From Mycolicibacterium pulveris (GTDB taxonomy: Bacteria; Actinomycetota; Actinomycetes; Mycobacteriales; Mycobacteriaceae), in NCBI RefSeq assembly GCF_010725725.1, contig NZ_AP022599.1:4340001-4404000 (forward strand): a DNA stretch of 64,000 nt. The letters are read 5' to 3'. The position numbers were made by a program, and so were the translations under genes. The notes under the pieces are model-generated. The model did no database searches, was not told where the DNA came from, and worked only from the letters and a program-made list of their open reading frames with translations. Positions 451-21,301 of this stretch are shown here, piece after piece (within the stretch, counting starts at the first letter, position 1; every line of letters begins with the position of its first letter).

Positions 451-461
451 AAGTCCGACAG
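451..461. promoter_or_regulatory. GTCnGAC operator upstream of the hydrolase/LLM/VWA/AAA operon
   Basis: The 7-mer GTCCGAC at 453-459 has the GT-N3-AC core typical of FadR-type GntR sites. It begins exactly nine bases before the -35 hexamer. The same core and spacing recur at 5280 and 19064 and, on the minus strand, at 17486. A degenerate second copy, GTCGGTC (489-495), overlaps the -10. Confidence 0.55.
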
Positions 462-490
462 TTGACTCATTTAGTCAAATCGGTTAATGT
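462..490 (+). promoter_or_regulatory. Promoter of the 523-5059 operon, with inverted repeat over the -35
   Basis: TTGACT (462-467), a 17-base spacer and TAATGT (485-490) make a good sigma-A-like promoter, with a start site expected near 497. The -35 is also the left arm of a perfect inverted repeat, TTGACT-N5-AGTCAA (462-478), a possible second operator. Confidence 0.65.
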
Positions 491-522
491 CGGTCAACAG
501 TTTTCCGGGAGGAGAGGCGGCG

Positions 523-1428
523 ATGTCAACCAGCGACGGCCAGCACGACGTTGCGCGAGCCTTCGCCATGTGGCGCGCGATGTTGCCCGAGCATCCCGAT
601 CCGACGATTGATGAGTTCCGCGCCGGCTACGACGCGATGTTTCGAGACTTCCCGATCGATCCGGATGCTCTGATCACCGAACTCGACGCCGGTGGTGTCC
701 GATCGCTGCAGGTTCAAGCCGGCGATTACGAACCCAGCCGCTACGTGGTCTATTTCCACGGCGGTGGGCTGATGTGTGGCAACCCGGAAGGTGTGCGCTC
801 AACGGCTGCTCGTGTCGCGCGCGCCGCGCGGGCCACCGTCCTCGTCCCCGATTACCGGCTGGCACCCGAGCATCCGTATCCGGCCGCGCTCGATGACGCC
901 ACGGCGGCATGCCTTTCGCTGCCAAGCCGGCAGGACGGCGAGCCGGTCAGGATGGCCCTGCTCGGCGACTCGGCCGGTGGAGGGCTGGCGATCTCGTGCG
1001 CGATTCGGTTACACGACAACGGTCACGACCAACTCGCTGCACTCGCCGTGTGGTCTCCGTGGGTCGATATGACGGTGTCGGGTGCCACCATCGAGTCGAA
1101 GGCGACGGTCGATCCGATCGCCAGCGGCCAGTCGCTGACCATGTCGGCTACCGCCTATCTTCAGGGCCACGCGCCGACCGACCCGACGGTGTCACCGCTA
1201 TTCGCCGACCTGTCGGGGCTGCCGCCGCTGATGATCGAAGTGGGAACCGAAGAGGTACTGCTCGACGACGCTCGTCGGTTGGCGGCCAAGGCGCAGGACG
1301 ACGGTGTCGAAGTGACGCTCACCGTGGCCGACGGTTTGCCGCACGTCTATCAGTACTTCGCGTCGTTCCTGCCTGCGGCCCAGACCTCGATCGAACGCAC
1401 CGGTGCATTCATCGACAAGCACGCCTAG
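523..1428 (+). CDS. alpha/beta hydrolase of the hormone-sensitive lipase (HSL) family
   Basis: A 301-residue esterase or lactonase-type hydrolase, probably cytoplasmic. The oxyanion-hole motif HGGG is at residues 79-82, the nucleophile elbow GDSAGG at 148-153 (Ser150), an acid candidate Asp248/249 follows LL, and His274 lies in GLPHVY. This order and the length are those of the HSL/Est family. I chose the ATG at 523 because a strong ribosome site (GGGAGGAGAGG) lies just upstream; an earlier ATG at 487 overlaps the -10. It is the first gene of an operon with an LLM oxidoreductase, a VWA protein and an AAA ATPase. A role in opening a lactone or ester made by the nearby monooxygenases is inferred from context. 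Confidence 0.85.
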   Translation: MSTSDGQHDVARAFAMWRAMLPEHPDPTIDEFRAGYDAMFRDFPIDPDALITELDAGGVRSLQVQAGDYEPSRYVVYFHGGGLMCGNPEGVRSTAARVARAARATVLVPDYRLAPEHPYPAALDDATAACLSLPSRQDGEPVRMALLGDSAGGGLAISCAIRLHDNGHDQLAALAVWSPWVDMTVSGATIESKATVDPIASGQSLTMSATAYLQGHAPTDPTVSPLFADLSGLPPLMIEVGTEEVLLDDARRLAAKAQDDGVEVTLTVADGLPHVYQYFASFLPAAQTSIERTGAFIDKHA

Positions 1429-1491
1429 ACAGGACCGTTGTCGGAACCGAGAAGACCAACCGCGAAAACCAAGAAGATAGGAGGCGCGTCG

Positions 1492-2643
1492 GTGACCCGA
1501 AAGTGCGGGATGTTGTTCGAGATGCCAGTCCCTCGGGAGCCACGGCCCGGAGAGAAGCACACTGCGTTCGACTCGGAGGGCCAACCCTACGAGGTCGAGG
1601 CGGCCTTCACGCCCGAATTGACCGAGCGCGCCTTCCACGACGTCGTCGAGCAAGCCATTCACGCCGAGAAGTGTGGCTATGACAGCGTGTGGTTCGTCGA
1701 ACACCACTTCTACGAAGAGGCCTCCCAGAGTTCGGCGCCCGATGTCATGCTGGCGCATATCGCCGCCAAGACCGAGCGCATTCGTCTCGGCCACGGCGTA
1801 CGCCTGCTGCCTTACAACTACAACCCGCCAATCCGGGCAGCGGAATCGGCTGCCGTGCTTGACATCTTGTCCAACGGACGGCTCGACTTCGGCACCGGCC
1901 GTAGCCTGAGCCGCCTTGAGCTCGAAGGCTTCGGCATCAATCCCGCCGACACTCGGGAACAGTGGGAGCACAGCCTGGACATCATCCTCGACTGCTGGAC
2001 CAAGGAGGTCGTCGAGCGCAGTGAGGGGGACATCGTCTTCCCGCCGCGGTCCGTGGTCCCCAAGCCGTTGCAACAACCGCACCCGCCGCTGTGGGCGGCG
2101 ACCACCGGGGCCCCGGGCCACGAGCTGATGGGGCGCAAGGGCCTTGGCCTGCTGTCGTTCACCCTGATGCTCCCGCTGGAGGAGTTGGCTTCACGAATCG
2201 CGCTTTACCGGGAGGGAATCAAACAGGCCGATCCCGTCGGGCACTACGTCAATGATCAGGTGGCGGCGATGACGATGGTGTACTGCGCCGAGGACGCTGA
2301 TGTCGCGCGGGAACGTGCCGGTACCGCGGTGATGAGCTATCTCGAATGGGCATTCGGGGCGTTCGTGGGCGCCGCCAAGTGGATGGATCCTCGCGAGGGT
2401 AGCTACAACTACCTGCAGGAGATGATGGGCATCGATTTCGACCAACTCACCTTCGATGTCGTCAACGACAACGACATGGTGATCGTCGGAACACCCGACG
2501 AGTGCGCCAAGAAGGCGGAGCGGTATTTCGAGGCGGGCGTCGACCAGATGCTGTGCCAGACGACGCTGCCGGGGATTCCGCACCAGGAAGTGATGGAGTC
2601 GATTGAATTGTTTGGCCGCGAGGTCATTCCGAAGATCACCTAA
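1492..2643 (+). CDS. LLM-class (bacterial luciferase-like) flavin-dependent oxidoreductase
   Basis: A 383-residue TIM-barrel protein of the luciferase-like family, which uses reduced FMN or F420. Family signs are the EHHFYEE segment near the N-terminus, the IAAKTERIRLGHGV stretch, LDILSNGRLDFGTGR, and the C-terminal IVGTPDECAKKAERY stretch typical of alkanal monooxygenase-like enzymes. The GTG at 1492 is preferred because AGGAGG (1479-1484) sits seven bases before it; an upstream TTG at 1438 lacks a site. Some members act as type II Baeyer-Villiger or aldehyde monooxygenases, others as F420-dependent reductases. The sequence alone does not decide which. Confidence 0.85.
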   Translation: MTRKCGMLFEMPVPREPRPGEKHTAFDSEGQPYEVEAAFTPELTERAFHDVVEQAIHAEKCGYDSVWFVEHHFYEEASQSSAPDVMLAHIAAKTERIRLGHGVRLLPYNYNPPIRAAESAAVLDILSNGRLDFGTGRSLSRLELEGFGINPADTREQWEHSLDIILDCWTKEVVERSEGDIVFPPRSVVPKPLQQPHPPLWAATTGAPGHELMGRKGLGLLSFTLMLPLEELASRIALYREGIKQADPVGHYVNDQVAAMTMVYCAEDADVARERAGTAVMSYLEWAFGAFVGAAKWMDPREGSYNYLQEMMGIDFDQLTFDVVNDNDMVIVGTPDECAKKAERYFEAGVDQMLCQTTLPGIPHQEVMESIELFGREVIPKIT

Positions 2644-2663
2644 CCTCGTCGCGTCCGGACGGA

Positions 2664-4205
2664 ATGCCTGTGCAAGCGCCCACGGAGTGCGACCTCAGCA
2701 CGCTCTCGGACGTCGCAGCGGTTCTCGCACCGGCGCTCAGCGGCGGGCGAAGACACGATGCCCAACTGGTCGCTGGTGAACGCGGACAGTTCGCGACGGA
2801 TCTCAGCACCGTCTATGTATCTGCGGCGCAGACGGTTCCGGCGGGTATGACGGTCGTGCGGGCCATGACCCTGGGGATCGCATTGCAGAGTTCGCCGACC
2901 AAGGAGATGGTCTCGGCGCTCGACTGGTCGTTGTTGACCCCACGGGAGCGGCGCGCCCTGCGGATCGCGGAGGGGCGGGCAGCGATGGGATGGGCGATCG
3001 CGTCGTGGCCTGCGATGTCGCCGGACTACGCCACGCTGGCACCGGGTCACCGGGCAGAACCAGCAGACGGTATCGATGAATTGCTGCAGCGGGCATCGGC
3101 GTTGGCCCGCAGCAATCTCGTGCTCGACGTTCCGGAGCTGTTCGGCGTTCCACCCGGAAGTCGACCGCTGAGCCGGCACCGCGAACGCATCGCCGGAGAC
3201 GGTAGGAGGCGCAACCGGGTGCCGTGGTCCAGTCGGCGAAACCTGCGCCACATGCGGCTCGCGATGCCTGTCGGCGGCACCGAAGGGGAATCTCCTCGTC
3301 TCGTCATCTTCGAGGAGGCGCCCGACAGCGAAGGGGAGTCCAGTGACGCCGACCGCCGCCTGGGCGTGCCCTACCCGGAGTGGGATTACCGACTGAACCG
3401 TTACCGACAGGACTTCGTGACGGTCGTCGAACGACGCATTTCGCCGCGGTATTCCCGAAACATCGACTTGGACCCCAGGATAAGGCGCTGGTTCATGGCC
3501 CCGCACGCTCTTGCACGGCGGAGCCGGATGGAGGACGGCGACCAGCTCGACGTCTCCGCCTATGTGGAGCAGTTCGGGTGGTCGAGAGCGGGAGGCCATG
3601 TCGATGACCGCATATACGAGGCAATGCTGCCCGCGCAGCGTGATGTCGCGACCGCCCTGCTACTCGATGCCACCTCGTCCTTGCAGGGCCGGGGTGGCGC
3701 GGGGTTCAGGCTCCAGCTAGCGTGCAGCGACGCGCTGTGCGCCGGGATGAGCAGCACCGCCGAGCGGTTCGCGGTATTCGCCTTCACCGGGGAAACCCGG
3801 CACCGGGTGGAGGTGACGCGGTTGCGTAACTTCGATGACCCCGCGTGGGCACTGCCTGCGGGGGCGGCGATCCGGCCGTCGGGCTACACGCGCCTGGGTG
3901 CGGCACTGCGGCATGTCACGAGGAGATTGGTGCAAGCTCCCGCCGAGCGCCGGGTGTTGCTCTCGATCGGGGACGCGGTGCCATCCGACGAGGGATATGA
4001 GGGCACCTACGCCGATGCGGACGTCAACCGCGCAGTGGACGAAGCGATCGCCGCCGGGGTCGTCTTCCGCCAGCTCGCCGTCGGGAAGACGACCGACGCG
4101 CAGCTCGAGCGCCGGTTCGGCTCTGGCCGTTTCCATCGAGTTTCGAAGTCCGAGGATCTCCCTTCGGTCCTCGCCCGGGTACACAAGGAGTTGACCTATC
4201 TATGA
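2664..4205 (+). CDS. NorD/CoxE-like von Willebrand factor A (VWA) domain protein
   Basis: A 513-residue protein with a divergent, Arg-rich N-terminal two thirds and a C-terminal VWA domain resembling NorD. A MIDAS-like motif, LLDATSS, lies near residue 335 (Thr replaces the first Ser of DxSxS). It is followed by GYTRLGAALRHVT and RRVLLSIGDAVPSD, the NorD counterparts of which read YTRMGAA and LTDGKPND. In NorQ/NorD, CbbQ/CbbO and CoxD/CoxE pairs the VWA partner links the AAA motor to a metalloenzyme that needs remodelling or metal insertion. The stop overlaps the next start as ATGA, so the two are translationally coupled. The client protein is not evident. Confidence 0.8.
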   Translation: MPVQAPTECDLSTLSDVAAVLAPALSGGRRHDAQLVAGERGQFATDLSTVYVSAAQTVPAGMTVVRAMTLGIALQSSPTKEMVSALDWSLLTPRERRALRIAEGRAAMGWAIASWPAMSPDYATLAPGHRAEPADGIDELLQRASALARSNLVLDVPELFGVPPGSRPLSRHRERIAGDGRRRNRVPWSSRRNLRHMRLAMPVGGTEGESPRLVIFEEAPDSEGESSDADRRLGVPYPEWDYRLNRYRQDFVTVVERRISPRYSRNIDLDPRIRRWFMAPHALARRSRMEDGDQLDVSAYVEQFGWSRAGGHVDDRIYEAMLPAQRDVATALLLDATSSLQGRGGAGFRLQLACSDALCAGMSSTAERFAVFAFTGETRHRVEVTRLRNFDDPAWALPAGAAIRPSGYTRLGAALRHVTRRLVQAPAERRVLLSIGDAVPSDEGYEGTYADADVNRAVDEAIAAGVVFRQLAVGKTTDAQLERRFGSGRFHRVSKSEDLPSVLARVHKELTYL

Positions 4206-5059
4206 CGAACGCCATGACACCGGTCGAATTTGATTCGCAGAGTGCATATTACGTGTCGACCGGCGGAGAATGTGAGGCGATGCGCGCGGCCTGCGACAGC
4301 GGCTTCGGCGTCATGCTGACCGGTCCGACCGGCTGCGGCAAGACCCGGTTGGTCCGGCACGTGACCGAAACACTCGGCAGATCTTTGATCACGGTGTCGT
4401 GCCACGACGAACTGTCCGCAAGCGATCTACTCGGCCGCTATCTGGTGGTGGGTGGGGATGTCCGGTGGGTGGACGGCCCGCTAACCACGGCCGTGCGCAG
4501 AGGCGATGTCTGCTACCTCGATGAGGTCGCCGAGGCACGCCGCGACACCTTGGCTGTCCTGCACTCACTTCTTGACGACCGCCGAGAGCTCTATCTGGAT
4601 CGCACGGGTGAAACAATCCGGGCGAGTGACGGGTTCGCCCTCATGGCGTCCTACAACCCAGAGTCACGCAGTCTCCTCAAGGAGTTGAAACCGTCCTTTC
4701 GGCAACGCTTTGTCACGATCGAAGTCGACTATCTGGCACCGGATCTCGAGGCCAAGGTCGTCATGCACGAATCGGGGGTGTCCAGGGAGACCGCGGAGCG
4801 GTTGGTGCGTAGCGCGGTGGCGCTGCGCCGTGCCCGGCACGCCGGTATAGAGCCGCCGTCCACACGGCTACTGGTAGCCGCTGCACGGCTGGTCGTCGCC
4901 GGGCTCGCCCTGCCCGAGGCCGTTCGCCTGGGCATTGTGAACCCGCTGTCGGCCGAGGGCCCGGCGGCAACCGCGTTGCACGAGCTGCTCGCGATCGAAG
5001 GAATCGTCATCGAACGCGACGAACACCACGAAACCGCCACGCCGGCAAATCAGGGCTGA
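4202..5059 (+). CDS. NorQ/CbbQ-type MoxR-family AAA+ ATPase
   Basis: A 285-residue AAA+ ATPase. Walker A is GPTGCGKT (residues 40-47), Walker B is the VCYLDEVAEA stretch near residue 100, and sensor 1 is in LMASYNPE. Length and layout match NorQ/NirQ/CbbQ motors, which work with a VWA protein to activate metalloenzymes such as nitric-oxide reductase or Rubisco. It overlaps the VWA gene by four bases. It is the last gene of the operon: 406 bases without a gene follow, starting with hairpins. Its position between an LLM oxidoreductase and a P450 is unusual. Confidence 0.85.
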   Translation: MTNAMTPVEFDSQSAYYVSTGGECEAMRAACDSGFGVMLTGPTGCGKTRLVRHVTETLGRSLITVSCHDELSASDLLGRYLVVGGDVRWVDGPLTTAVRRGDVCYLDEVAEARRDTLAVLHSLLDDRRELYLDRTGETIRASDGFALMASYNPESRSLLKELKPSFRQRFVTIEVDYLAPDLEAKVVMHESGVSRETAERLVRSAVALRRARHAGIEPPSTRLLVAAARLVVAGLALPEAVRLGIVNPLSAEGPAATALHELLAIEGIVIERDEHHETATPANQG

Positions 5060-5094
5060 TCGCCGCGGCAATCGAACGGACAGGCGATGCTCTT

Positions 5095-5122
5095 CCCGAC
5101 CGGGGTCGGGGTCGCCGACCCC
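5095..5122 (+). terminator. Hairpin pair downstream of the AAA ATPase gene, likely terminator
   Basis: CCCGAC-N4-GTCGGG (5095-5110) overlaps GGGGTCG-N1-CGACCCC (5108-5122), so two alternative GC-rich stems form about 35 bases after the stop. No U-run follows, as is common for mycobacterial terminators. The rest of the 5060-5279 gap has no gene; a further short hairpin lies at 5243-5262. Confidence 0.5.
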
Positions 5123-5262: not shown

Positions 5263-5279
5263 GGCTTACTCAAATAAGA

Positions 5280-5325
5280 GTCTGACAGTTGACGCCCAGG
5301 GCACAATTTGGCTATTGTCGGACAT
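5280..5325 (+). promoter_or_regulatory. P450 operon promoter flanked by two GTCnGAC operators
   Basis: GTCTGAC (5280-5286) begins nine bases before the -35 TTGACG (5289-5294). After an 18-base spacer comes the -10 TATTGT (5313-5318), and a second operator, TTGTCGGACAT (5315-5325), covers the -10 and the expected start site. The layout copies that of the promoter at 462-490 and would suit repression by a FadR-type GntR dimer. Confidence 0.65.
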
Positions 5326-5465: not shown

Positions 5466-6635
5466 ATGACCACTCAGGATGCGACGAACTCGCTATATCT
5501 GCAGACGCCTGGTGAGACGTTCGATTACCTCGACGACCTCCGCCGGAACTGTCCGGTCTCCTGGGACCCCATTCTGCGTGGTTACCTGGTGACGAAGTTC
5601 GACGATGTGTACAACGTCATGTTCGACAACGCTCGCTTCCGGCTCCAGGCCCGGCCCGAGGAGCAGTATCAAGAGCACCAGCCGAAGGGCCGGGTGCGGA
5701 CCTTCAACCACCTGTTGAGCCTCAAGAACATTCAGCCCCGTCTCCAGTCGGTCGTGCAGGCCGAGATCGACCTCCTGATCGACGCCAAGGCGCCCACGGG
5801 GCACATGGAGGTGTACGACGACTTCGCCGAGAAGTTGCCCGCCCACATCATCGGCCTCTTCTTCGGTTTGGACCGGGCCGATTTCCCGCTGCTTCTGTCA
5901 TACCGGCGGGCACGGCACGCGTTGTTCAACTCGCCCCCCGATGCCGAGGACATTGCGCGCACGGCCCGCGAGGAACAGCGGAAGATGGAGAGCCGGATGG
6001 CCGAGGTCATCGCCGATCATCGGGCCAACCCGGTAGACGACCTGCTTACCCAGCTGATCGAGATGACCGAAGACGGCGCTCCGCTGACCGACGAGCAGAT
6101 CGTCACGATCGTCGCGCGTGACCTGCTGATGGCCGGAAGCGAGACCGTCACCAACAGCATCTGCAATGCGGTTTATCGGATGCTGACCATTCCCGGCCTC
6201 TACGACAAGTTGGTCGCTGATCCTTCCCTCGTCCCGGCGTTCGTCGAGGAGGCTCTGCGATTCGACCCGCCCGTGCAGATCTTCTGGCGTGCCACCGAAG
6301 AAGACGTCGAGATCTCCGGCTGCCCCATTGCGAAAGACACCCAGCTCTACACCTCGATTGCAAGTGCCAATCGCGATCCGGAGGTGTTCTCTGAACCCAA
6401 GGTCTTCGACCTCACCCGCCCCAAGGGTAAACACATCACCTTCAGCGTGGGCTTGCACAAATGCCCCGGACATTTCCTCGCCCGCTACGAGCTGGAGATG
6501 TCGATCGCTTCGCTGCTGAGCCGCCTGCCCAACCTGCGGATCGACCCTGACGCCGAGCAGCCGCAGTATGTTGGCGTCGCGCTGAGGAACTGGGGCCCAA
6601 TCCATCTGCTCTTCGATGCGCCGAAGGGTGACTGA
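5466..6635 (+). CDS. Cytochrome P450 (bacterial class I type)
   Basis: A 389-residue soluble heme monooxygenase. The heme-ligand loop FSVGLHKCPG places the thiolate Cys at residue 333. The I-helix oxygen-activation motif AGSET is near residue 223, and EEALRFDPP carries the ExxR motif. The chosen ATG follows a clear GAAGGAGA ribosome site; an upstream in-frame GTG (5382) is less likely. No ferredoxin or ferredoxin reductase gene is adjacent, so electron partners must be encoded elsewhere. It heads an operon with an SDR and a Baeyer-Villiger monooxygenase, which suggests it hydroxylates the substrate whose alcohol is then oxidised to a ketone (inference). Confidence 0.92.
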   Translation: MTTQDATNSLYLQTPGETFDYLDDLRRNCPVSWDPILRGYLVTKFDDVYNVMFDNARFRLQARPEEQYQEHQPKGRVRTFNHLLSLKNIQPRLQSVVQAEIDLLIDAKAPTGHMEVYDDFAEKLPAHIIGLFFGLDRADFPLLLSYRRARHALFNSPPDAEDIARTAREEQRKMESRMAEVIADHRANPVDDLLTQLIEMTEDGAPLTDEQIVTIVARDLLMAGSETVTNSICNAVYRMLTIPGLYDKLVADPSLVPAFVEEALRFDPPVQIFWRATEEDVEISGCPIAKDTQLYTSIASANRDPEVFSEPKVFDLTRPKGKHITFSVGLHKCPGHFLARYELEMSIASLLSRLPNLRIDPDAEQPQYVGVALRNWGPIHLLFDAPKGD

Positions 6636-6667
6636 GCAGAACACAACCCTTCATCGCCGCATCAGCT

Positions 6668-7507
6668 GTGGCGTCGGCTCACGAAATGGACATTGATCAG
6701 ATGGATCTCAACAAGGCGCATGCCTTCATCATCGGGGGGTCAACCGGTGTCGGTGCGGCGCTGACCCGCGCGCTCGTCGCCGAGGGCGCCAAGGTCACCG
6801 TGCTGGCCCTGGCGGGATCCGAGCTCGACGATATCGGCCGGGAGACCGGCGCGGCGACCATCGCGGCGGATCTGTCGAATCTCGACGAGCTGGATGGCAT
6901 GGTCGCCCGCGCGGAGGCCCTGAACGGCCCGGTTGACATCATGGTGTGCATGGCCGCCGTGTGTCCGTCCGGGCCATTCCAGGACTACACCAGCGACCAG
7001 ATCCGAAAGACGGTCACGGTCAACATGATCGCTCACATGGAGCTCGTTCGACAGGTGCTTCCGAGCATGATCGCGCGGCGCACGGGGACGATCACCACCA
7101 CCGGTTCGTTCTCCAGCGAGATATCGATGATCCACCTGGGCTGCTATATACCGTCCAAGGCCGGCCTGAGCAGATTCGCGTTCGATCTCCAAAGCGAAGT
7201 CCGAGATTACGGCATCAGGGTGTTCACCTTTGTTCTTGGCTCGGTCAAGGGAACGCCGCTTGCGTCGAAGGCCGCCGAAGATCAAGTCGTCGGTTTCATC
7301 GAGGCGCGCGCCGGGGGTATCGGTGTGCTGACACCCGAGGCAGTCGCCAAGCGCATGGTCGAGGTCCTGCAGAGCAATCGCAAGCGGGGAGTGGTCGCGA
7401 TTCCCGGACTGGCGCAGCCACTGCTCGAGTTCAAGGCACTGCCAGACCGTCTCCTGGATCCGCTCATGGGCAGACCTGCGCGAAAACGCAAGCGCAGCAC
7501 CGCTTGA
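6668..7507 (+). CDS. Short-chain dehydrogenase/reductase (SDR)
   Basis: A protein of up to 279 residues with the SDR nucleotide fold. The dinucleotide motif is a variant GGSTGVG near residue 23, a CMAA segment replaces the usual NNAG, and catalytic YIPSK follows a Ser-rich GSFSS stretch. The start is uncertain: GTG 6668, ATG 6686 and ATG 6701 are all in frame and none has a strong ribosome site. It lies 32 bases after the P450 and 98 before the BVMO. The three enzymes form a plausible hydroxylase, alcohol dehydrogenase and ketone monooxygenase sequence. Confidence 0.82.
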   Translation: MASAHEMDIDQMDLNKAHAFIIGGSTGVGAALTRALVAEGAKVTVLALAGSELDDIGRETGAATIAADLSNLDELDGMVARAEALNGPVDIMVCMAAVCPSGPFQDYTSDQIRKTVTVNMIAHMELVRQVLPSMIARRTGTITTTGSFSSEISMIHLGCYIPSKAGLSRFAFDLQSEVRDYGIRVFTFVLGSVKGTPLASKAAEDQVVGFIEARAGGIGVLTPEAVAKRMVEVLQSNRKRGVVAIPGLAQPLLEFKALPDRLLDPLMGRPARKRKRSTA

Positions 7508-7605
7508 CCATACGACACTGCAGGTGTGGCCGGCAGTGTCCGAAATGGATCAGCCCACGCACCCAGGCAGCCGCGGCCGAGCAGCGCCAAGACGAGAGGA
7601 CATCG

Positions 7606-12727: not shown

Positions 12728-12737
12728 CTGCCCCTCC

Positions 12738-13622: not shown

Positions 13623-14812
13623 GTTCTCCGACCTCGTGAATAGGTGTCGCGTGCGATCAACAACCGTTGGATTTCGTTGGTTCCGTCGTAGATTCGGGTC
13701 ACCAGGGCGTCGCGCAACAACCGTTGAATGGCGCTCTCACGCCGGTCTCCGTCGGGGCCCATGAGCTCAAGGATGCGGTCTGCGACCTCCACCGCCAACT
13801 CGGTGCACAGCAGTTTGGCCGCTGACACCTCGGCCACCTCGGTTCCCTTGCCGGCATCGATGACGCGCGCGGTCTGGATCAACAGCAGGCGGGCCGACAG
13901 CACCTTGGCACGCAGGAGCGCGAGTTCGGACTGAATGAACTGTCCCGCATCGTTCTTCGGGTGCAGAAGGTCGCGCTCAGCGGCGTACGCGATGCCGGCA
14001 CGCAGCGCGGCGGCGGCGAGCCCTACGCCTTGCGCCGCCGCGCTGAGCCGTGTCTTGACCACCGAGGACATCGCGATGGCGAAGCCCTTGCCGACATCGC
14101 CGAGTACGGCCGAGCGTGGTACCACACAGTCTTGGAAGGACAGTTCGACCGTCGAGGAACCATGCATACCCATCTTGGCGAACGGTGCGCCTGCCACCAC
14201 GCCGCCGTCAGCGGGATCGACGAGGAACGCGACGACGCCGTCACGGCCCGCGCTGCGGTCGATGGTCGCGAACGTGACGATGACACCGGCGACGTCGCCG
14301 GAGGTGATGAAGGTCTTCGTGCCGTTGAGCACGAAGCCCTCTTCGACCGGTTGTGCGGTTGTGCTCAACGCGCTTACGTCCGAACCACCCGAGGGTTCCG
14401 AGATCGCGATGGAACCGTAGATGTCACCAACGCACAACCGCGGCACGTGCTTCGCACGTTGTTCGGGGGTGCCCCATCTGATGATCGGCCAGGCCGCGTG
14501 CATCTGGGTCATGTACACCAAGGACGTCGAACCGCAGGCCGCGGCGATTTCCTCCATGACAACGGCGTATGCCGCGCTCGATGCGCCTAACCCGCCATCG
14601 GACACCGGGATCGGCAGCGCGCCAAGCCCGGCGTCGACGAGTGCCCGATACTGCTTGTGGGGGAATTCGCCGGTGAGATCGGTCGCCGCGGCGTACGGTG
14701 CGACGTCGGTTGCGATGACTTCGCGAGCCTTGTCCCGAAGTGCCAGCTCCTCAGGTAGCAGGGCCAAATCGGCGGCCTTTTCGTCAAGCGCCTCGGCCGG
14801 TATCAGGTTCAC
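13619..14812 (-). CDS. Acyl-CoA dehydrogenase
   Basis: A 397-residue flavoprotein introducing an alpha,beta double bond into an acyl-CoA. Family signatures are AISEPSGGSDV, LNGTKTFITSG and MGMHGSSTVELSF. The C-terminal IYDGTNEIQRLLIAR aligns with the IYEGT motif that carries the catalytic Glu in many members, but here the position is Asp. Either Asp serves as base or the catalytic residue lies elsewhere, as in isovaleryl-CoA dehydrogenase. GTG 14812 overlaps the upstream stop as GTGA. Confidence 0.9.
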   Translation of the reverse strand: MNLIPAEALDEKAADLALLPEELALRDKAREVIATDVAPYAAATDLTGEFPHKQYRALVDAGLGALPIPVSDGGLGASSAAYAVVMEEIAAACGSTSLVYMTQMHAAWPIIRWGTPEQRAKHVPRLCVGDIYGSIAISEPSGGSDVSALSTTAQPVEEGFVLNGTKTFITSGDVAGVIVTFATIDRSAGRDGVVAFLVDPADGGVVAGAPFAKMGMHGSSTVELSFQDCVVPRSAVLGDVGKGFAIAMSSVVKTRLSAAAQGVGLAAAALRAGIAYAAERDLLHPKNDAGQFIQSELALLRAKVLSARLLLIQTARVIDAGKGTEVAEVSAAKLLCTELAVEVADRILELMGPDGDRRESAIQRLLRDALVTRIYDGTNEIQRLLIARDTYSRGRRT

Positions 14813-15591
14813 CGGTCGGCCATCTTCGCCAGCATTGCTGTGATACCGGCCTGCCCGTTGACCGACGCGATCGCGATGGCGGCCAGCGCGGCTTCCTGCC
14901 CGAGCGCGAGGCTTGAGGGCACCTGCGCGCTCGCCGCCGCGAGAACGGTGCGCGTCGCAGCGGGCGTTGCCCGGCACAGCTTTTCGACGAGCTCGTCGAC
15001 GGCGGCGGCCACGGAGTCGGGCGCGATCACCGGACAGGCCAAGATGCCGGCTTCGGCGGCTTCGCGGGCGCTCAGGCGGGCACCCGTCAACATCAGACGC
15101 AGTGCCAGGTGACGGCCCAAGGCATCGGTGAGGCGCTGAGTGCCACCGTAGCCGGGTATCAGGCCCAACGTCGCCTCGGGCAGACCGAACTGCGAGCGCT
15201 CCGTCGCGACAAGCAGATGGCAGGCCAGGGCCAACTCGAAACCACCACCGATGGCAAACCCGTCCACCACGGCCACCACCGGCTTCGGCGCCAGCTCGAT
15301 GCGGCGGAACAGGTTCTGACCCCGGTTGAGCAGGTTGAGTGCGGCCTCGCTGTCCAACCCCGCGAGTTCCTTCAAGTCCGCCCCCGCGCAGAACGCCCGG
15401 GGACCCGCACCGTGGATAACGACCGCCCGAACCGCCTCGTCATCGAGGACAAGATCGAGTTCGTCGCTCAGCGCGTCGAGCAACTCGGTGTTGAGCGCGT
15501 TGAGGACCGCGGGTCGGTTGAGCGTCAGGTGCACCGCGTTGTCGGTACGGCGGCTGATCAGCACGCCATCGTGTTCCGCGTCGTTCGTCAT
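14809..15591 (-). CDS. Enoyl-CoA hydratase
   Basis: A 260-residue crotonase with both classical catalytic glutamates visible, one in GGGFELALAC and one in GLPEATLGLIPGYGG. It should hydrate trans-2-enoyl-CoA to 3-hydroxyacyl-CoA. It is the first gene of the seven-gene minus-strand operon running down to 9491, in which most neighbours overlap by about four bases. The operon promoter region is shared with the divergent SDR at 15886. Confidence 0.9.
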   Translation of the reverse strand: MTNDAEHDGVLISRRTDNAVHLTLNRPAVLNALNTELLDALSDELDLVLDDEAVRAVVIHGAGPRAFCAGADLKELAGLDSEAALNLLNRGQNLFRRIELAPKPVVAVVDGFAIGGGFELALACHLLVATERSQFGLPEATLGLIPGYGGTQRLTDALGRHLALRLMLTGARLSAREAAEAGILACPVIAPDSVAAAVDELVEKLCRATPAATRTVLAAASAQVPSSLALGQEAALAAIAIASVNGQAGITAMLAKMADR

Positions 15592-15687: not shown

Positions 15688-15698
15688 TTGTCGGACAA
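15688..15698. promoter_or_regulatory. Perfect 11-base operator palindrome between divergent operons
   Basis: TTGTCGGACAA is a perfect 5-1-5 palindrome containing GTCGGAC, the best match in the window to the FadR-type GntR consensus. It lies in the 294-base gap between the minus-strand operon (start 15591) and the SDR (15886). Confidence 0.6.
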
Positions 15699-15852: not shown

Positions 15853-15862
15853 CCCTGGCGGT

Positions 15863-15876: not shown

Positions 15877-15885
15877 GCTCCCGAT

Positions 15886-16641
15886 ATGGCTGATCAGATC
15901 TTGGCGGGTCGCAAGGCCGCGGTAACCGGGGCAAGCAGGGGAATCGGCCGGGCGATCGCGCTGGCTCTGGCGGCGGCAGGAGCCGATGTCGGACTGGTTG
16001 CGCGGTCGCTTTCAGATCTCGAGAAGGTGGCCGACGAAGTCCGCGCCCTCGGCCGTACCGCGGTCGTGGCCCACATGGATGTCACCGACGCCGACAGTGT
16101 GAACGGCGCCGTCGACGACGTTCACCGACGGCTGGGCGGTCTCGACGTGATGGTGAACAATTCTGGCGTGGTGAGTGCCGGCCATGCTTTGGACACAACG
16201 CTGGCCGAATGGGACCGCGTGCTCGACACGAATCTGCGCGGCACCTTCGTCTGCTGTCAGGCCGCGGGGCGTCACCTGACGGCGCAGGGAGCCGGCAAGG
16301 TCATCAACGTGGCGAGTCACTTCGGCTTGATGGCGGTACCGGGCTTTTCGGCCTACTGCGCGTCGAAGGCCGCGATCCTGCATCTCACCAGGGTGCTGGC
16401 GATTGAGTGGGCGCGTCACGGCGTTCAGGTCAACGCCATCGCGCCGGGCTATGTGGAGACCGACCTAAGTGCAGATGTGCGCGAGAATCCAGAGCTGAAA
16501 GACCGTGTTCTGCAACGTATCCCGGCGCGCCGCATGGCTGATGCAGCAGAGATAGGACCACTTGCCGTGCTACTTGCGTCCAGCCAGTCCGACTACATGA
16601 CCGGTTCCGTGTTGGTCATCGACGGCGGTCAGTCGATTTAG
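15886..16641 (+). CDS. Short-chain dehydrogenase/reductase (SDR, FabG-like)
   Basis: A 251-residue classical SDR. The cofactor motif TGASRGIG is near residue 11, NNSG replaces NNAG, and catalytic YCASK is preceded by an ASHF segment. The C-terminus ends with the usual VIDGG pattern. Candidate roles are oxidation of a pathway alcohol or a 3-hydroxyacyl-CoA. The gene is divergent from the minus-strand operon and convergent with the hydratase at 16638, overlapping it by four bases at the stop codons. Confidence 0.88.
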   Translation: MADQILAGRKAAVTGASRGIGRAIALALAAAGADVGLVARSLSDLEKVADEVRALGRTAVVAHMDVTDADSVNGAVDDVHRRLGGLDVMVNNSGVVSAGHALDTTLAEWDRVLDTNLRGTFVCCQAAGRHLTAQGAGKVINVASHFGLMAVPGFSAYCASKAAILHLTRVLAIEWARHGVQVNAIAPGYVETDLSADVRENPELKDRVLQRIPARRMADAAEIGPLAVLLASSQSDYMTGSVLVIDGGQSI

Positions 16642-17417
16642 GCGCCCATCCTTTCCGCCCTTTCCACGGCGGAGGGAATCCACGCCGCCGGGCGCTTGTC
16701 GCGAAAGGCTGCCATGCCTTCGCTGGCTTCGTCTGAGGCGAATCGGGCCATCGAAAGCCGCGTCATCTCGGCGAACGCTTCGGTGGAAGCCATCGAGGAC
16801 ATCTGCCGGATCAGTCGTTTGGTCTCTCGGATCGCGACCGGTCCACCGGCGAGCAGTTCACACAGCAGGGCGTCGACCTTCTGGTCCAACGCGTCAGCGG
16901 CCACGGCATAGTTGACGAGCCCGACCCGTGCCGCCTCGGCGCCGGTGATCCGGCGGCCGGAGAGCATGAGGTCGGAGGCGTCGGCCCGAGTGAGTTTGGG
17001 CAGGCAGACCAGGGAGATGATCGCGGGGACGACACCGATTCGCACCTCGGTGAACCCCAGCAGGGCCCGCTCGTCGATCACGGAGATGTCGCACGCCGCA
17101 GCAAGACCCACGCCGCCGGCCACGCAGTGCCCCGCGATGCGTCCGACCACCGGCTTCGGTGCGTCCAGGATGGTGTTCAGGACCGGGACCACATCGCTCT
17201 TTGAGCGGTCGGCGTCTGCGCTCAGATCGGCACCGGCGCAGAAAGTATTGCCGTCGTTGGTGATAACGATCGCGCGTACGTCGGTGTCGGTGATCGCCTG
17301 CTCGAGGCCGTCTCCCAGCCCCTGTACCAGCGTCGGGCTCAGGGCGTTCTTGTTGGCGGACTCATCCATCGTCAGCCTGGCGACACCGCCCGCTGCCTCG
17401 TACCGAACCCCAGCCAC
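16638..17417 (-). CDS. Enoyl-CoA hydratase/isomerase, LiuC/AtuE-like
   Basis: A 259-residue crotonase. In the first active-site segment (AGGVGLAAACDIS) the usual Glu is Gly, while the second Glu is kept in FTEVRIGVVPAIIS. This pattern is typical of the LiuC/AtuE group (3-methylglutaconyl-CoA and isohexenylglutaconyl-CoA hydratases). GTG 17417 is preferred because AAGGAG stands just before it; a longer frame from 17483 runs over the operator. It is divergent from the GntR regulator gene. Confidence 0.85.
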   Translation of the reverse strand: MAGVRYEAAGGVARLTMDESANKNALSPTLVQGLGDGLEQAITDTDVRAIVITNDGNTFCAGADLSADADRSKSDVVPVLNTILDAPKPVVGRIAGHCVAGGVGLAAACDISVIDERALLGFTEVRIGVVPAIISLVCLPKLTRADASDLMLSGRRITGAEAARVGLVNYAVAADALDQKVDALLCELLAGGPVAIRETKRLIRQMSSMASTEAFAEMTRLSMARFASDEASEGMAAFRDKRPAAWIPSAVERAERMGA

Positions 17418-17483
17418 CGGTCTCCTTTTGATCTCGAGCGTTCGGATGAAAACTCGAAGTCGGATGTTTTGATCAAGCGTCAA

Positions 17484-17494
17484 TTGTCTGACTC
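17484..17494. promoter_or_regulatory. Operator in the divergent gntR/hydratase promoter region
   Basis: TTGTCTGACTC contains GTCTGAC (17486-17492). Read on the minus strand, GTCAGAC is followed at the same nine-base offset by TTGACG, a -35 for the hydratase gene. The site lies 47 bases upstream of the regulator start, consistent with autoregulation. Confidence 0.6.
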
Positions 17495-17540
17495 TAGTAC
17501 AGTTAGGAGCTCAGGCAAGTGGAGGTGGTTCGGAGGTAAT

Positions 17541-18272
17541 GTGCGGACAAACGATGTGCAAGCGCCGGCGTTCGCCGCGACGGTCGTAAAGCGTCCTCGG
17601 CACCAGGTCGAAGAGCAGATTCGGCACGCGATCAGGTCGGGTGCGCTGGTCACGGGCCAGAAGCTGCCCACCGAGATCGAGCTGGCGGCCAACTTCGGCG
17701 TCTCCAGGACCACGATCCGTGAAGCGTTGCGAACGCTGGTGGCCGACGGCTTGCTGGAGAAGATGCCGGGAGCCGGCGGGGGATCGTTCGTGCGAAACCT
17801 CGACCACCACGCTTTCGGCGCGGATCTCGGCGAGGACATCGAGAACCTGCTGCGGGTGGGATCGGTCGAATACCGCGAGGTGGCGGAGGTCCGTCGCATG
17901 CTCGAGGTGCCCGCCGCCAGGTTGGCCACCCGCAATCGCTCGCAGGCCGACCTGGATGCGCTCAACGAGGTGCTCGAAGACGAGAAGGCGCTTTCGTTCG
18001 ACGACCCCACCGTTCCCGAACTCGATGTTCGTTTTCACTCCACCATCAGCAAGGCATCCGGTAACCGGGTCGTCGCCGCCTTCGTGGCCGCCCTGCACCA
18101 GGTGACCGAGCCCGTTCATCACCTCAAACTCAGCGCCGAGGTCGGTAAGCGGACATTCCGCCAGCACGTCGCGATCGTGCGCGCCATCGAGAAGGGCGAC
18201 GCCGACGCGGCGGAGCGGGCGATGAGTGAGCATCTGTCGTATCTGGAGCAGCACTCGACCAACGAGGGTTGA
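17541..18272 (+). CDS. GntR-family transcriptional regulator (FadR subfamily, FCD domain)
   Basis: A 243-residue regulator. The N-terminal winged helix contains LPTEIELAANFGVSRTTIREALR, shown here only as landmarks: LPTE, then FGVSRTTIREAL. The C-terminal FCD domain has the metal/ligand-site pattern ELDVRFH, RQHVAI and MSEHLSYL. FCD regulators sense small carboxylates or acyl-CoAs and usually repress. GTG 17541 follows CGGAGGTAAT; a longer frame from TTG 17469 would overlap its own operator. It is the only regulator gene between 1 and 23 kb, and the GTCnGAC sites across the island are its likely targets. Confidence 0.9.
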   Translation: MRTNDVQAPAFAATVVKRPRHQVEEQIRHAIRSGALVTGQKLPTEIELAANFGVSRTTIREALRTLVADGLLEKMPGAGGGSFVRNLDHHAFGADLGEDIENLLRVGSVEYREVAEVRRMLEVPAARLATRNRSQADLDALNEVLEDEKALSFDDPTVPELDVRFHSTISKASGNRVVAAFVAALHQVTEPVHHLKLSAEVGKRTFRQHVAIVRAIEKGDADAAERAMSEHLSYLEQHSTNEG

Positions 18273-18281
18273 CGTCTGAAG

Positions 18282-19061
18282 GTGGAAAACGAACAAGCCG
18301 GAAGCTCTCTGCGGTCGCGCAAGGCCGTGGTCAGTGGTGGCGCCGGTGGAATAGGGCTCGCGCTCGCCGAGCGCCTCGCCGCCGAGGGGGCCGGCACGGT
18401 CGCAGTGGATATCGACCCGGCCGGCGGCGGCGATCTTGCGCGACGCGGTGTCGATCTCGTCGTCGCCGATGTGGCGAACCCGGCCGACTGGAAGCGGGTG
18501 ACGGAGGTCGTCAACAGTCGGCTCGGGGGACTGGATCTGCTCGTCCTCAACGCCGGGGTGCCCGTTTTCGACCCCGATGTGATCGGCGCGCCCTACGAGC
18601 GGGTGCGGCGGGCCTACGACGTCAACGTGGAGGGGGTGATCCACGGACTACGGGCCGGGGTTCCGCTGATGGAGGCCACCGGTGGGGGTGATGTGGTCAT
18701 CGTCGCAAGCCTTGCCGGGGTGATGGCATATCCGGACGACCCCTACTACGCGATGACCAAACACGCCGTCGTCGGCCTGGGGCTCAGTGCGGCCCGCAGC
18801 CTGCAGGCCCGAGGGGTGCGGGTGACGATCTTCTGTCCCGGGGTCGTCGACACGAAACTGGTTCCCGCACACGTGCGCGTCGCCGTCAGCGAGGCTGGTC
18901 TGGAGCCGCTGAGCCCTGCGGAGGCGGCCGGGCATCTGCTTGCCGCCCTCGATCACGGTGGGACCGGACGCATCTGGCTCAGTCAGGCGCAACTGGGGCT
19001 GGTGGAGTACGTGCCGGCCCGTGTCCCGCTGCCCAGGCCCGCCCGAACCGGCCGCGCGTAA
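18282..19061 (+). CDS. Short-chain dehydrogenase/reductase (SDR)
   Basis: A 259-residue SDR with GGAGGIG as dinucleotide motif, LNAG, a VASLAG serine segment and catalytic YYAMTK. It starts nine bases after the GntR gene and is almost certainly co-transcribed with it. It belongs to the classical oxidoreductase group, and the substrate cannot be read from the sequence. The C-terminal stretch past residue 220 is longer than the catalytic core needs. Confidence 0.86.
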   Translation: MENEQAGSSLRSRKAVVSGGAGGIGLALAERLAAEGAGTVAVDIDPAGGGDLARRGVDLVVADVANPADWKRVTEVVNSRLGGLDLLVLNAGVPVFDPDVIGAPYERVRRAYDVNVEGVIHGLRAGVPLMEATGGGDVVIVASLAGVMAYPDDPYYAMTKHAVVGLGLSAARSLQARGVRVTIFCPGVVDTKLVPAHVRVAVSEAGLEPLSPAEAAGHLLAALDHGGTGRIWLSQAQLGLVEYVPARVPLPRPARTGRA

Positions 19062-19102
19062 AAGTCCGACACTTGCCACTCTGATTAATAGCAGACTAGC
19101 CT
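19062..19102 (+). promoter_or_regulatory. Operator and promoter of the second LLM gene
   Basis: GTCCGAC (19064-19070) begins nine bases before TTGCCA (19073-19078), followed after 18 bases by TAGCCT (19097-19102). This matches the layout at 451 and 5280, although both hexamers are weaker. The motif starts three bases after the upstream SDR stop. Confidence 0.5.
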
Positions 19103-19168
19103 GTCAGCGGAGTGTCCGGTTCGACACCGGATAGCCGAACGAAGGCGCGAAGGCGGGAGCAGTTGGTC

Positions 19169-20062
19169 GTGGGCAGGAACGCAAGGCCGCAGTCGAGGCC
19201 GAAAGTCGGGATCTGGCTTTCGGTTGTGGAACCCGATCAGCTGATCGACTTCGCGCAGGAGGCCGAGTCGGCGGGGTGTGACTCGGTATGGGTGCCTGAG
19301 CACCTGGTCTGGCCGGATTCCATCAAGTCGCAGTACCCCTATCGCGACGACGGCGCCCCGCCGGTACCCAGCGACGTGAACCTTTACGATCCGTGGGTTC
19401 TGCTCGGGGCGGTCGCCTCTAAGACCACGACTATCAAGCTCGGAACCTGTGTATACGTGCTGCCCCTTCGCGATCCGTTGGTGACTGCGCGGGCGGTGGC
19501 GACGCTGGACATTCTCAGTGGCGGACGGGTGATCCTGGGCGCCGGACTGGGCTGGATGGCCGAAGAGTTCGAGGCGGCAGGCATCGACTTTCGGACCAGG
19601 GGAGCACGCTGCGACGAAATCGTCCCGGTGCTGCGCTCGCTGTGGTCGAACGAGATCACCTCGGCGGATGGCAAATACGTGCGGCTGCCGCCGGTGCACT
19701 TCAACCCGAAGCCGCCCAGTGGTGCAGCGTTGCCCATTGTGTTCGGGGGCGAGTCCGAGCATGCGCTGCGTCGGGCCGCCCGGATCGGCAACGGCTGGTT
19801 GGGTACCTGGCACACGCCGGAGTCGACGCGGGCCGTGGTGTCCCGGCTCGAAGGCTATCTCGCTGAATATGGCCGCGACAGCGGGGATTTCGAGATCACC
19901 GTCATGGTCAGCCCCCGCGGGGTGACCGACCAAACCGTGCTCGACCTTTACCAGGCCGGCGCCGACCGCATCTGCGTTGGCTCACCACGGGCACCGTTGC
20001 GCGTATGGCCGCAGGTGTTGCAGCGGCTCGCCGACGTCCTGCAGTCGCCGGCTCTTCGATAG
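19169..20062 (+). CDS. LLM-class F420- or FMN-dependent oxidoreductase
   Basis: A 297-residue luciferase-like TIM barrel, closer to the short F420-dependent members than the enzyme at 1492. It shows WVPEHLVW near residue 50, VATLDILSGGRVILGAGLGW, and a C-terminal VSPRG segment. GTG 19169 fits a GCGGGAG site; a longer frame begins at 19112. It is monocistronic with its own operator-bearing promoter and converges with the acyl-CoA dehydrogenase at 20069, six bases apart. Confidence 0.82.
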   Translation: MGRNARPQSRPKVGIWLSVVEPDQLIDFAQEAESAGCDSVWVPEHLVWPDSIKSQYPYRDDGAPPVPSDVNLYDPWVLLGAVASKTTTIKLGTCVYVLPLRDPLVTARAVATLDILSGGRVILGAGLGWMAEEFEAAGIDFRTRGARCDEIVPVLRSLWSNEITSADGKYVRLPPVHFNPKPPSGAALPIVFGGESEHALRRAARIGNGWLGTWHTPESTRAVVSRLEGYLAEYGRDSGDFEITVMVSPRGVTDQTVLDLYQAGADRICVGSPRAPLRVWPQVLQRLADVLQSPALR

Positions 20063-20068
20063 CCTCCG

Positions 20069-21214
20069 TCACGCCGGTAGGCCGTCGAGCCGAGCGAGCG
20101 TCCTGAGCATTATCTCGTCGGCCCCGCCTCCGATCGAGAGCAGCCGGGCATCGCGGAAGTATCGGGCCGTCCAGTTCTCCTCCATATAGCCTTGGCCACC
20201 GTGGAATTGGAGACACCAGTCCGCGATCTCCCGCTGAAGTCGTGCCGCCTTCAACTTGCAGATCGCTGTCTGGCGTTGAGTGTCCTCGCCTCGGACAAAG
20301 GCCTCTGCACAGGCGTGGGTATACGCGCGAAGGAGGTCGAGCTCGGCGGACAACTCGGCCAGCCGGTACTGAATGTATTGGTTGTGTCCAAGAGACTTAC
20401 CGAAAGCGCGGCGGTCGCACACGAATCGGCGAGTGCGGGCCAGCGCCTCGAGCATCCCGCCCACCGCCATGTAAGCACCGATCATGCGTTCATGCTGGAA
20501 CTGCCTCATCTGCTGCGAGAATCCGCGGCCGATCTCCCCGATGGTGTTGGCCACCGGAACCCGAACATCGACGAACGAGAGCTCTGCAGTGTCGGACGCC
20601 TTGTTGCCGACCTTGCGCAGCGAGCGGCTGACCTGTAACCCCGGCGTCGACGTCGGCACGATTATCTGCGACATGCCGCGCGAGCCACCTTCGTCCGATG
20701 TCCTGGCAAGCAGGCAAAGCCAGTCAGCCTGCACACCGTTCGTGATGTACAGCTTGCTTCCGTTGATGATCCAGTTGTCCCCATCCCGGACGGCGCGCGT
20801 CCGCAAGCCCGCCACATCTGAGCCGGCCTCCGGCTCGGTGACGGCGATGGCGGCTACGGCCCGACCCTCGAGCGCCGGGCGCAGGAACCGCTCTTTGAGC
20901 GCGTGGCTGCCGTGTTGATGCAAAGAGGGTGTGGCCATGTCGGTTTGGACCGCGACAGCGGTGAATACGCCCATCGAGGGAATCCGGCCGAGTTCTTCGC
21001 CGAGGACCAGCGTGTAGAGGTGGTCGGCGCCCTGCCCGCCGTAGGCAACGTCGTATTCCAAGCCCAGCAATCCCGCGTCAGCCAGTTGGGGAAACAGTTC
21101 GTGGGCCGGGAAGATCCCGCGCTCCTCCCACTCATCAACGTAGGGCAGGACGTAGCGCTCGATGACGCCACGCACGGTGGTGCGAAAGATTTCGTGGTCT
21201 TCGGTGAAGGTCAT
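20069..21214 (-). CDS. Acyl-CoA dehydrogenase (isovaleryl/citronellyl-CoA dehydrogenase-like)
   Basis: A 381-residue acyl-CoA dehydrogenase with VTEPEAGSDVAGL, INGSKLYITNG and a C-terminal FHGGQGYMEE. The usual C-terminal catalytic position is glycine (SIGGGADEI). A Glu in QHERMIGAY lies where isovaleryl-CoA and long-chain dehydrogenases carry theirs, pointing to branched acyl-CoA substrates. It is divergent from an AtuA-like gene and shares the operator at 21281-21301 with it. In acyclic terpene pathways AtuD, a citronellyl-CoA dehydrogenase, has this type of role. Confidence 0.88.
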   Translation of the reverse strand: MTFTEDHEIFRTTVRGVIERYVLPYVDEWEERGIFPAHELFPQLADAGLLGLEYDVAYGGQGADHLYTLVLGEELGRIPSMGVFTAVAVQTDMATPSLHQHGSHALKERFLRPALEGRAVAAIAVTEPEAGSDVAGLRTRAVRDGDNWIINGSKLYITNGVQADWLCLLARTSDEGGSRGMSQIIVPTSTPGLQVSRSLRKVGNKASDTAELSFVDVRVPVANTIGEIGRGFSQQMRQFQHERMIGAYMAVGGMLEALARTRRFVCDRRAFGKSLGHNQYIQYRLAELSAELDLLRAYTHACAEAFVRGEDTQRQTAICKLKAARLQREIADWCLQFHGGQGYMEENWTARYFRDARLLSIGGGADEIMLRTLARLDGLPA

Positions 21215-21280
21215 CTCGGTTCCGTCTGGAGGTCGCCGGTTTCGGCCGCGTTGGGTCTTTTAGACCGACTTTTTCATAAT

Positions 21281-21301
21281 GTATAACGTCTGACACTATA
21301 C
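21281..21301. promoter_or_regulatory. Extended palindromic operator between acyl-CoA dehydrogenase and atuA-like genes
   Basis: GTATA at 21281-21285 and TATAC at 21297-21301 flank GTCTGAC (21288-21294), giving a 21-base palindrome with eight of ten pairs matched. It lies in the middle of the divergent promoter region. A degenerate site, GACCGAC, is at 21263-21269. Confidence 0.6.

Follow-up and report, generated by a model that had tools for sequence, protein, structure and literature searches.

Regulators of the FadR subfamily of GntR proteins recognize palindromic operators with a GT-N3-AC core, given as NyGTM-N0-1-KACNy in the part of PMC4494728 available to us. In Corynebacterium glutamicum, two regulators of this kind, GntR1 and GntR2, are interchangeable paralogues; the available part of PMC2230225 reports that they protect positions -1 to -10 and -38 to -48 at gntK, for which the authors propose a loop. 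The locus described here is an island of catabolic genes in Mycolicibacterium pulveris. It was analysed from a stretch of 64,000 nucleotides (the window), which starts at 4,340,001 of the single contig NZ_AP022599.1; short positions below count from the first letter of the window and seven-digit positions are those of the contig. A motif whose best form is wwTGTCnGACAww, with the core GTCnGAC, recurs at promoters of the island, and two paralogous FadR-type regulators are its candidate binders: REG1, encoded at 17541 in the window, and REG2, encoded just outside it.

The motif appears to be the operator of both REG1 and REG2, which would jointly control about 33 catabolic genes, most likely by repression. 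We put the probability of this reading at about two in three. The shared motif by itself is a well-supported set of predicted operators. An earlier note on this DNA had described one operator-like motif common to the island promoters with a core of the FadR type, and the description stands: GTCnGAC is present at 453, 5280, 5317, 15690, 17486, 19064 and 21288, and all seven sites have the GT-N3-AC form of the FadR-subfamily operator. The site at 15688, TTGTCGGACAA, is a palindrome as the note had it. The 21-base palindrome at 21281-21301 is also there, as an imperfect one (8 of 10 pairs by eye).

How strong is the count? Over 356-23042 of the window there are 16 copies of GTCnGAC, seven in gaps (1,258 bp, by the analysis's own gene calls) and nine inside genes (21,429 bp), the latter left unmentioned before. 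Seven copies in the gaps compare with a dinucleotide-shuffle mean of 0.63 and a maximum of 4, and none of 5,000 shuffles reached seven. The word had been picked after reading the sequence, and a best-of-576 control was therefore also run. GTC.GAC ranked first among 576 gapped 3+3 palindromes in the gaps, and the best of the 576 words reached seven in one of 200 shuffled gap sets, which gives p of about 0.005-0.01 after correction for word choice.

Over the whole window the bare word is not enriched, with 25 copies against 38.5 expected. For genome-wide counts it is not long enough, and its place was taken by the compound form and a matrix (trained on the seven window sites only, with a hit cut-off of 11.5). 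The 5,484,749-bp genome contains AGTCNGACANTTG, the extended form, exactly four times, each time inside the island, and GTCNGACNNTTGMC has six exact copies, four of them in the island. In the genus, 45 of 198 genomes contain the word GTCNGACANTTGAC, at 53 places in total, and only this genome and G109 have three copies; the three of this genome sit within about 17 kb, those of G109 on three contigs. In other words, the evidential strength of the motif lies in its compound form and not in the bare 7-mer. The G109 sites were set aside: among 22 REG1-like matches in that genome (best E 4e-26) one lies on a site contig, about 22 kb off, and with no regulator of the REG1 kind nearby the three sites are unexplained or chance.

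These counts bear on the idea that no regulator stands behind the motif, which would then be part of the promoters or a word arisen by chance in AT-rich gaps. The lack of enrichment of the bare 7-mer in the window agrees with that idea, as do two longer words. One, WWNGTCNGACNWW, has 11 genomic sites, as many as its backward control (three lie in the extended island, at 4323480, 4335211 and 4355687, and two at 4434887 and 4434918); the other, GTCNGACANTTGAC, is found in 44 of 197 other genomes of the genus, 39 of them with one copy. However, the four exact AGTCNGACANTTG sites cluster within 19 kb, the promoter blocks are conserved, and a permuted-matrix test on regulator upstream regions (below) singles out the motif, so that the idea is largely refuted and now very improbable.

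Conservation was followed in G231, a genome of the same genus that carries both regulators and the whole island. In alignments of ten promoter regions between the two genomes, the operators are identical or near-identical blocks in otherwise diverged sequence. The hydrolase promoter keeps AAGTCCGACAGTTGACT with CGGTTAATGTCGGTCA, the P450 promoter keeps AGAGTCTGACAGTTGACG with GGCTATTGTCGGACATGTGCAT (one base differs just before the first block), the REG1 promoter keeps CAATTGTCTGACTCTAGTACAGTTA and the promoter of the 19112 gene keeps TAAAAGTCCGACACTT; the operator block of a FadD operon farther left is also common to both. The core differs at the carboxylase gap (GTCCAAC here, GTCGGAC in G231) and at ribBA (GACCGAC here, GACCAAC in G231). 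The G231 island has 13 matrix hits, ten in gaps, one at the start of the CaiB gene and two inside genes. In G687, which belongs to another family and has a regulator 67% identical, the matrix gives seven hits. Six fall in gaps that separate aligned genes, one of these at a P450 promoter with GTCAGACAGTTGAC; the other is found in an unannotated stretch, 76 bp upstream of an acyl-CoA dehydrogenase gene.

Two further observations concern the G231 locus. Relative to the window, it has about 9.4 kb of extra sequence (1442884-1452315 of G231) between the AAA ATPase and P450 genes. A contig of a Rhodococcus metagenome-assembled genome (L017) is nearly identical to it though the genus differs, which is probably binning contamination or a very recent transfer; its promoters hardly differ from the G231 ones, and it was therefore left out as independent support.

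The features of the window are as follows, from left to right, with SDR for short-chain dehydrogenase/reductase and nt for nucleotides.

453..459, + strand: operator 1 of the hydrolase operon, GTCCGAC, 9 nt before the predicted -35 box TTGACT; block kept in G231
462..490, + strand: predicted promoter TTGACT-17-TAATGT, kept in G231
489..495, + strand: weaker second operator GTCGGTC, overlapping the -10 box; by eye, GGTTAATGTCGGTCA is conserved with G231
487..5059, + strand: operon for an alpha/beta hydrolase, a luciferase-like oxidoreductase, a VWA protein and a CbbQ-type AAA ATPase
5280..5286, + strand: operator 1 of the P450 operon, GTCTGAC, 9 nt before the predicted -35 box TTGACG
5289..5318, + strand: predicted promoter TTGACG-18-TATTGT
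5317..5323, + strand: operator 2 of the P450 operon, GTCGGAC, overlapping the -10 box; GGCTATTGTCGGACATGTGCAT conserved with G231
5466..9441, + strand: operon for a cytochrome P450, an SDR and a flavin monooxygenase (like Baeyer-Villiger monooxygenases, a putative name)
9491..15591, - strand: operon for a hydrolase, an acyl-CoA dehydrogenase, a BadI/MenB-class hydratase, two 3-hydroxyacyl-CoA dehydrogenases, an acyl-CoA dehydrogenase and an enoyl-CoA hydratase
15690..15696, no strand: operator TTTGTCGGACAAA in the divergent gap 14809(-)/15886(+); G231 has TTTGTCCGACACA, with the core retained and the centre and one flank base different
15886..16641, + strand: SDR with 50-52% identity to one encoded close to the regulator in seven relatives
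16638..17483, - strand: enoyl-CoA hydratase, whose true start is probably downstream of the mechanically called TTG
17486..17492, no strand: operator in the divergent gap 16638(-)/17541(+), 9 nt before a minus-strand TTGACG; CAATTGTCTGACTCTAGTACAGTTA identical in G231
17541..18272, + strand: REG1, FadR/FCD-type GntR regulator, PF00392 and PF07729 above cut-off
18282..19061, + strand: SDR directly 3' of REG1
19064..19070, + strand: operator of the 19112 gene, GTCCGAC, 9 nt before TTGCCA; operator kept in G231
19112..20062, + strand: F420-type luciferase-like oxidoreductase (TIGR03619, 227 bits, cut-off 166.9)
20069..21214, - strand: acyl-CoA dehydrogenase
21281..21301, no strand: operator GTCTGAC (21288) within the imperfect 21-bp palindrome, in the divergent gap 20069(-)/21345(+); TAACGTCnGACAnTATACACTC conserved in G231
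21345..23808, + strand: a protein that we take to be AtuA-like (0 NCBIfam hits) and a tyrosine-phosphatase-like protein named from its translation alone; both kept in G231 (83% and 68%)

The VWA and CbbQ-type AAA ATPase genes (2664-5059) share their operon with the luciferase-like oxidoreductase gene, and their products may be an activation pair for an island enzyme.

A link between the motif and the regulator family, as the earlier note had implied, is borne out across genera. REG1 homologues were found in 4 of 297 genomes of the genus (E to 1e-40), 12 of 401 of the family and 5 of 394 of the class (E to 1e-60), where each count includes this genome and G245 recurs between sets, leaving 16 other genomes. 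The surroundings of the regulator were examined in 13 of the 16, with G550 and G560 left out. In ten (G245, G904, G375, G508, G640, G600, G952, G531, G496 and G687) the regulator lies in the same stretch as a gene set for CaiB, enoyl-CoA hydratase (ECH), acyl-CoA dehydrogenase (ACAD), SDR, HAD and BadI-like proteins; G952, G531 and G496 lack part of the set, and in G245, G531 and G496 it lies some kilobases from the regulator. Only CaiB and ECH lie within the examined stretch of G545, and no gene of the set was found in the examined surroundings of G019. The window-trained matrix was applied to 15 regulator-upstream windows from 12 genomes, whose regulators are 45-67% identical. The summed -ln p was 51.2, and none of 400 column-permuted matrices reached it on the same windows (mean 23.5, standard deviation 5.7, maximum 50.8). 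Good examples are the following.

G245: TAATGTCGAACATTA
G904, before CaiB: TAATGTCGGACATTA
G375: TTATTGTCGAACATT

Because the sites, their conservation and the regulator-upstream matrix matches fit together, an autoregulated FadR-type regulator of the REG1 subfamily is the likely binder of the sites. REG1 itself has the domains expected of the FadR subfamily, an N-terminal GntR winged helix (PF00392, 74.8 bits, cut-off 27) and an FCD effector domain (PF07729, 99.8 bits, cut-off 24.3). FCD domains carry the metal-ligand pattern D..FH / H / H. In REG1 it is represented by DVRFH from residue 162, QHVAI from 208 and EHL from 230, and 18 of 19 regulators have the pattern if F or L is allowed, the exception being G019. 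Two more specific identities were rejected for REG1. As an LldR equivalog it scores 111.9 bits against a cut-off of 311 (NF007741), and as NanR 121.8 bits against 260 (NF003011); the NanR operator consists of TGGTATAW direct repeats in the part of PMC4494728 seen, and the window sites are palindromes.

The earlier note had taken REG1 for the only regulator and the island promoters for a complete regulon of about 20 genes. Its site in the REG1 promoter is confirmed; these other two claims fail because the island and a second regulator extend past the left edge of the window. REG2 (4338200-4338913) is a FadR/FCD regulator about 1.1 kb left of the window, beside the site-bearing ribBA gene with which it adjoins the window edge. 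It is 68% identical to REG1 over 228 residues, and the recognition helices of the two differ only by an I/V change, so that binding cannot be assigned to REG1 alone. Paralogous regulator pairs recur at the G375, G508 and G545 loci, and in a regulator tree with several forks open the pairs of G375/G508, of G545 and of REG1/REG2 do not look like one ancient duplication.

One possibility is that only REG2, or another FCD regulator, binds the sites and REG1 does something else. The identity of REG2 and its place next to a site-bearing gene would agree with this, and the genome has 18 FCD matches, with weaker TGTNNNACA-like words flanking another FCD gene at 4423362. However, G231 has the site of the REG1 promoter unchanged, and relatives in which a single regulator was found repeatedly show matches upstream of it. 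We consider such an exclusive role for REG2 or a third protein unlikely, and joint binding by REG1 and REG2 remains the preferred reading.

Farther left of ribBA and REG2 lie genes for a CaiB-type CoA-transferase, an acyl-CoA ligase, two luciferase-like oxidoreductases and both subunits of a biotin-dependent acyl-CoA carboxylase. These left-side genes have 71-93% identical orthologues in the same region of G231. In this part of the island, on which the matrix was not trained, there are four hits of at least 11.5, three in promoter gaps and one at the CaiB start.

Carboxylase divergent gap: AATGTCCAACAGT
Oxidoreductase/ligase gap: ATTGTCGGACAAT
CaiB start, where the choice of start codon decides whether the site is upstream of the gene or within it: ACTGTTCGACATT
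ribBA: AAAGACCGACAGT

In 68.6 kb outside the island there was a single hit, TATGTCCGACATT at 4323486. It precedes a FadD-ECH-ACAD operon by about 50 bp, is matched by a counterpart in G231 and carries the regulon to about 16.5 kb beyond the left edge of the window. The catabolic region thus spans about 40 kb, and the regulon would comprise about 33 genes, 22 in the window, eight to its left and three in the FadD operon. About 70 kb right of the island, at 4434887-4434930, two perfect ATTGTCAGACAAT palindromes lie 31 bp apart after a ferredoxin-like gene and, by eye, behind TTGACA-17-TTATTG; they may be a distant target or a site of another FadR-type protein.

The position of the operators points to a mechanism. 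At five promoters of this genome the distance from the first base of the core to a -35-like hexamer is exactly nine bases: the four for which this offset had been claimed (453, 5280, 17486 on the minus strand and 19064) and ribBA. The same offset is found at the hydrolase, P450, 16638 and ribBA promoters of G231 and at two promoters of G687. Among 15 compound sites, which contain orthologues and hence are not independent, TTGMC stands at the offset in 11, and TANNNT follows 17-18 nt further in seven of those 11 (eight of all 15); the background for TANNNT is 10 of 704 TTGMC words in three regions, compound sites included. These figures support TTGMC at the offset as a predicted -35 box. An accessory half-site (PMC4494728) was also considered, since the GAC of TTGAC is 8-10 nt away from the operator centre. 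By eye, a 3'-side GAC is missing at 5317, at 21288 and at the oxidoreductase/ligase and FadD sites, and at 15690 lies a base farther out. Because the 3' GAC is patchy, TTGAC is more likely the -35 box itself. If the usual -10-to-start distance is assumed, the operator centre would lie at about -41/-42, and the second operator of the hydrolase and P450 promoters at about -5.

How would REG1 and REG2 act from these positions? Most likely they repress strong promoters that bear good -35 boxes. The operator lies against the predicted -35 box, and at the hydrolase and P450 operons the second copy covers the predicted -10 box. Release from DNA would follow when the FCD domain binds a pathway acid or acyl-CoA. 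Both would repress their own genes, and the REG1 site, six bases before a conserved TACAGT, fits autorepression. Repression is preferred because of the gntK footprint precedent of GntR1/GntR2 and the geometry of the REG1 site, and the exact -35 register keeps activation of a class II type open.

Class II activators bind near -41. The same regulators may be class II activators or dual regulators wherever the operator lies nine bases before the -35 box, and repressors only over the -10 box or spacer. The register, exact at five promoters of this genome, four of G231 and two of G687, and the operator centre near -41 both suit activation, for which the FadR family offers precedents: E. coli FadR activates fabA and fabB (PMC3460868), E. 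coli LldR can activate (PMC10272880) and GntR1/2 activate ptsG (PMC2230225), each according to the part of the source available. However, the -35 boxes are near consensus (TTGACT, TTGACG, TTGACA), unlike those of activator-dependent promoters, two promoters have second operators on the -10 box, and the -35 box of the 19112 gene is lost in G231. Moreover, the available part of PMC2230225 assigns the -38 to -48 site to a repressed promoter. Activation is on balance improbable. Doubtful too is a more general scheme in which FadR/FCD operators keep a single-base register with the -35 box across families, the regulator activating there and repressing over the -10 box, and in which two paralogues form a two-input dual switch.

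Several points weigh against joint repression by REG1 and REG2. As candidate binders, the two proteins are indistinguishable. The -35 box TTGCCA of the 19112 promoter is TTCCGC in G231, and TANNNT was not found at the ribBA and 16638 promoters. In the regulator-upstream test, 4 of 15 windows were above 0.05 (G952 0.19, G019 0.09, G496 0.08, G600 0.05), and the relatives are not independent, several being almost the same in sequence. One permuted matrix that kept the GTC columns scored 50.8, almost equal to the real one, which means that the flanks are poorly resolved. A top-5% matrix site lies upstream of CaiB in only 4 of 10 relatives. In G231, 2 of the 13 island hits are intragenic, and the sites of the hydrolase and ribBA promoters score less than 11.5. 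Finally, a further 20 kb outside the island gave four matrix hits, two near another FCD gene and the pair at 4434893/4434924.

What does the island do? Its P450, SDRs, flavin monooxygenase and hydrolases, followed by CoA-level enzymes, suggest a pathway that degrades an alicyclic or terpenoid compound and hydrolyses its ring at the CoA level. The CoA-level set comprises a CoA ligase, acyl-CoA dehydrogenases, hydratases, 3-hydroxyacyl-CoA dehydrogenases, a BadI/MenB-class enzyme and an acyl-CoA carboxylase, in addition to the AtuA-like protein. The targets of REG1 and REG2 would accordingly serve beta-oxidation of CoA thioesters, cleavage of the ring and supply of flavin. A flavin supply fits the flavin enzymes of the island, and ribBA scores 582 bits against an NCBIfam cut-off of 569. 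The 11085-11888 gene was rejected as a BadI equivalog (TIGR03210, 231.7 bits, cut-off 467.6). No bad-gene equivalog cut-off was reached in the island, TIGR03207 giving at most 179.8 bits against 575.

How does the island compare with known systems? As far as the open-licence PMC literature shows, the operator set has not been described before; a search there for TGTCGGACA together with GntR gave no match. The nearest precedent is GntR1/GntR2, which likewise consists of two FadR-subfamily paralogues with one operator type (TNGTNNNACNA) and catabolic targets, and whose gntK footprint covers the same two positions as the predicted operators of the hydrolase and P450 promoters. It differs in that it is a gluconate regulon, in that the second gntK site has no clear motif in the part of PMC2230225 available, and in that binding is proven there, whereas here it is predicted.

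The E. coli LldR box AAnTGGTCnGACCAnTT (PMC10272880, seen in part) has a GTCnGAC core identical to that of the island operator, and the LldR model is the second-best NCBIfam match of REG1. The flank is G-GTC in the LldR box and T/A-GTC in the island, in step with a missing arginine in the regulators, and there is no sign of a lactate role. In FadR proteins, an arginine at helix-turn-helix position 28 (Arg-35 in E. coli FadR) goes with the G in TKGT, according to the part of PMC4494728 available. None of 19 regulators has this arginine (I, V, M, A or T is there), and of the 14 window half-sites, by eye, 13 have A or T as the matching base, one has C and none has G; the recognition-helix arginine that contacts G in FadR is retained in all 19. 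An LldR-like core whose flank base follows the lost position-28 arginine is a small natural test of the published residue-to-base code.

The gene content resembles BadK/BadH/BadI-type pathways, namely the bad genes of R. palustris and the naphthenic acid clusters of Rhodococcus, in clustering acyl-CoA dehydrogenase, enoyl hydratase, SDR and BadI/MenB-class hydratase genes, and REG1-type regulators lie near such sets in relatives; a Rhodococcus badH region with naphthoate synthase is described in the part of PMC4591350 seen. The island differs by its added P450, flavin monooxygenase, luciferase-like and AtuA-like genes and by scores below the bad equivalog cut-offs. For this uncharacterised catabolic region of a mycobacterial-type genome, the analysis provides a testable operator, a promoter set and two candidate regulators, and the motif carries over to a regulator subfamily near BadK/BadH/BadI-like sets in other actinobacteria. 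The operator set is thus a fresh example of the known FadR-type local regulon, wider than the earlier note claimed and probably under two regulators, as in the GntR1/GntR2 system.

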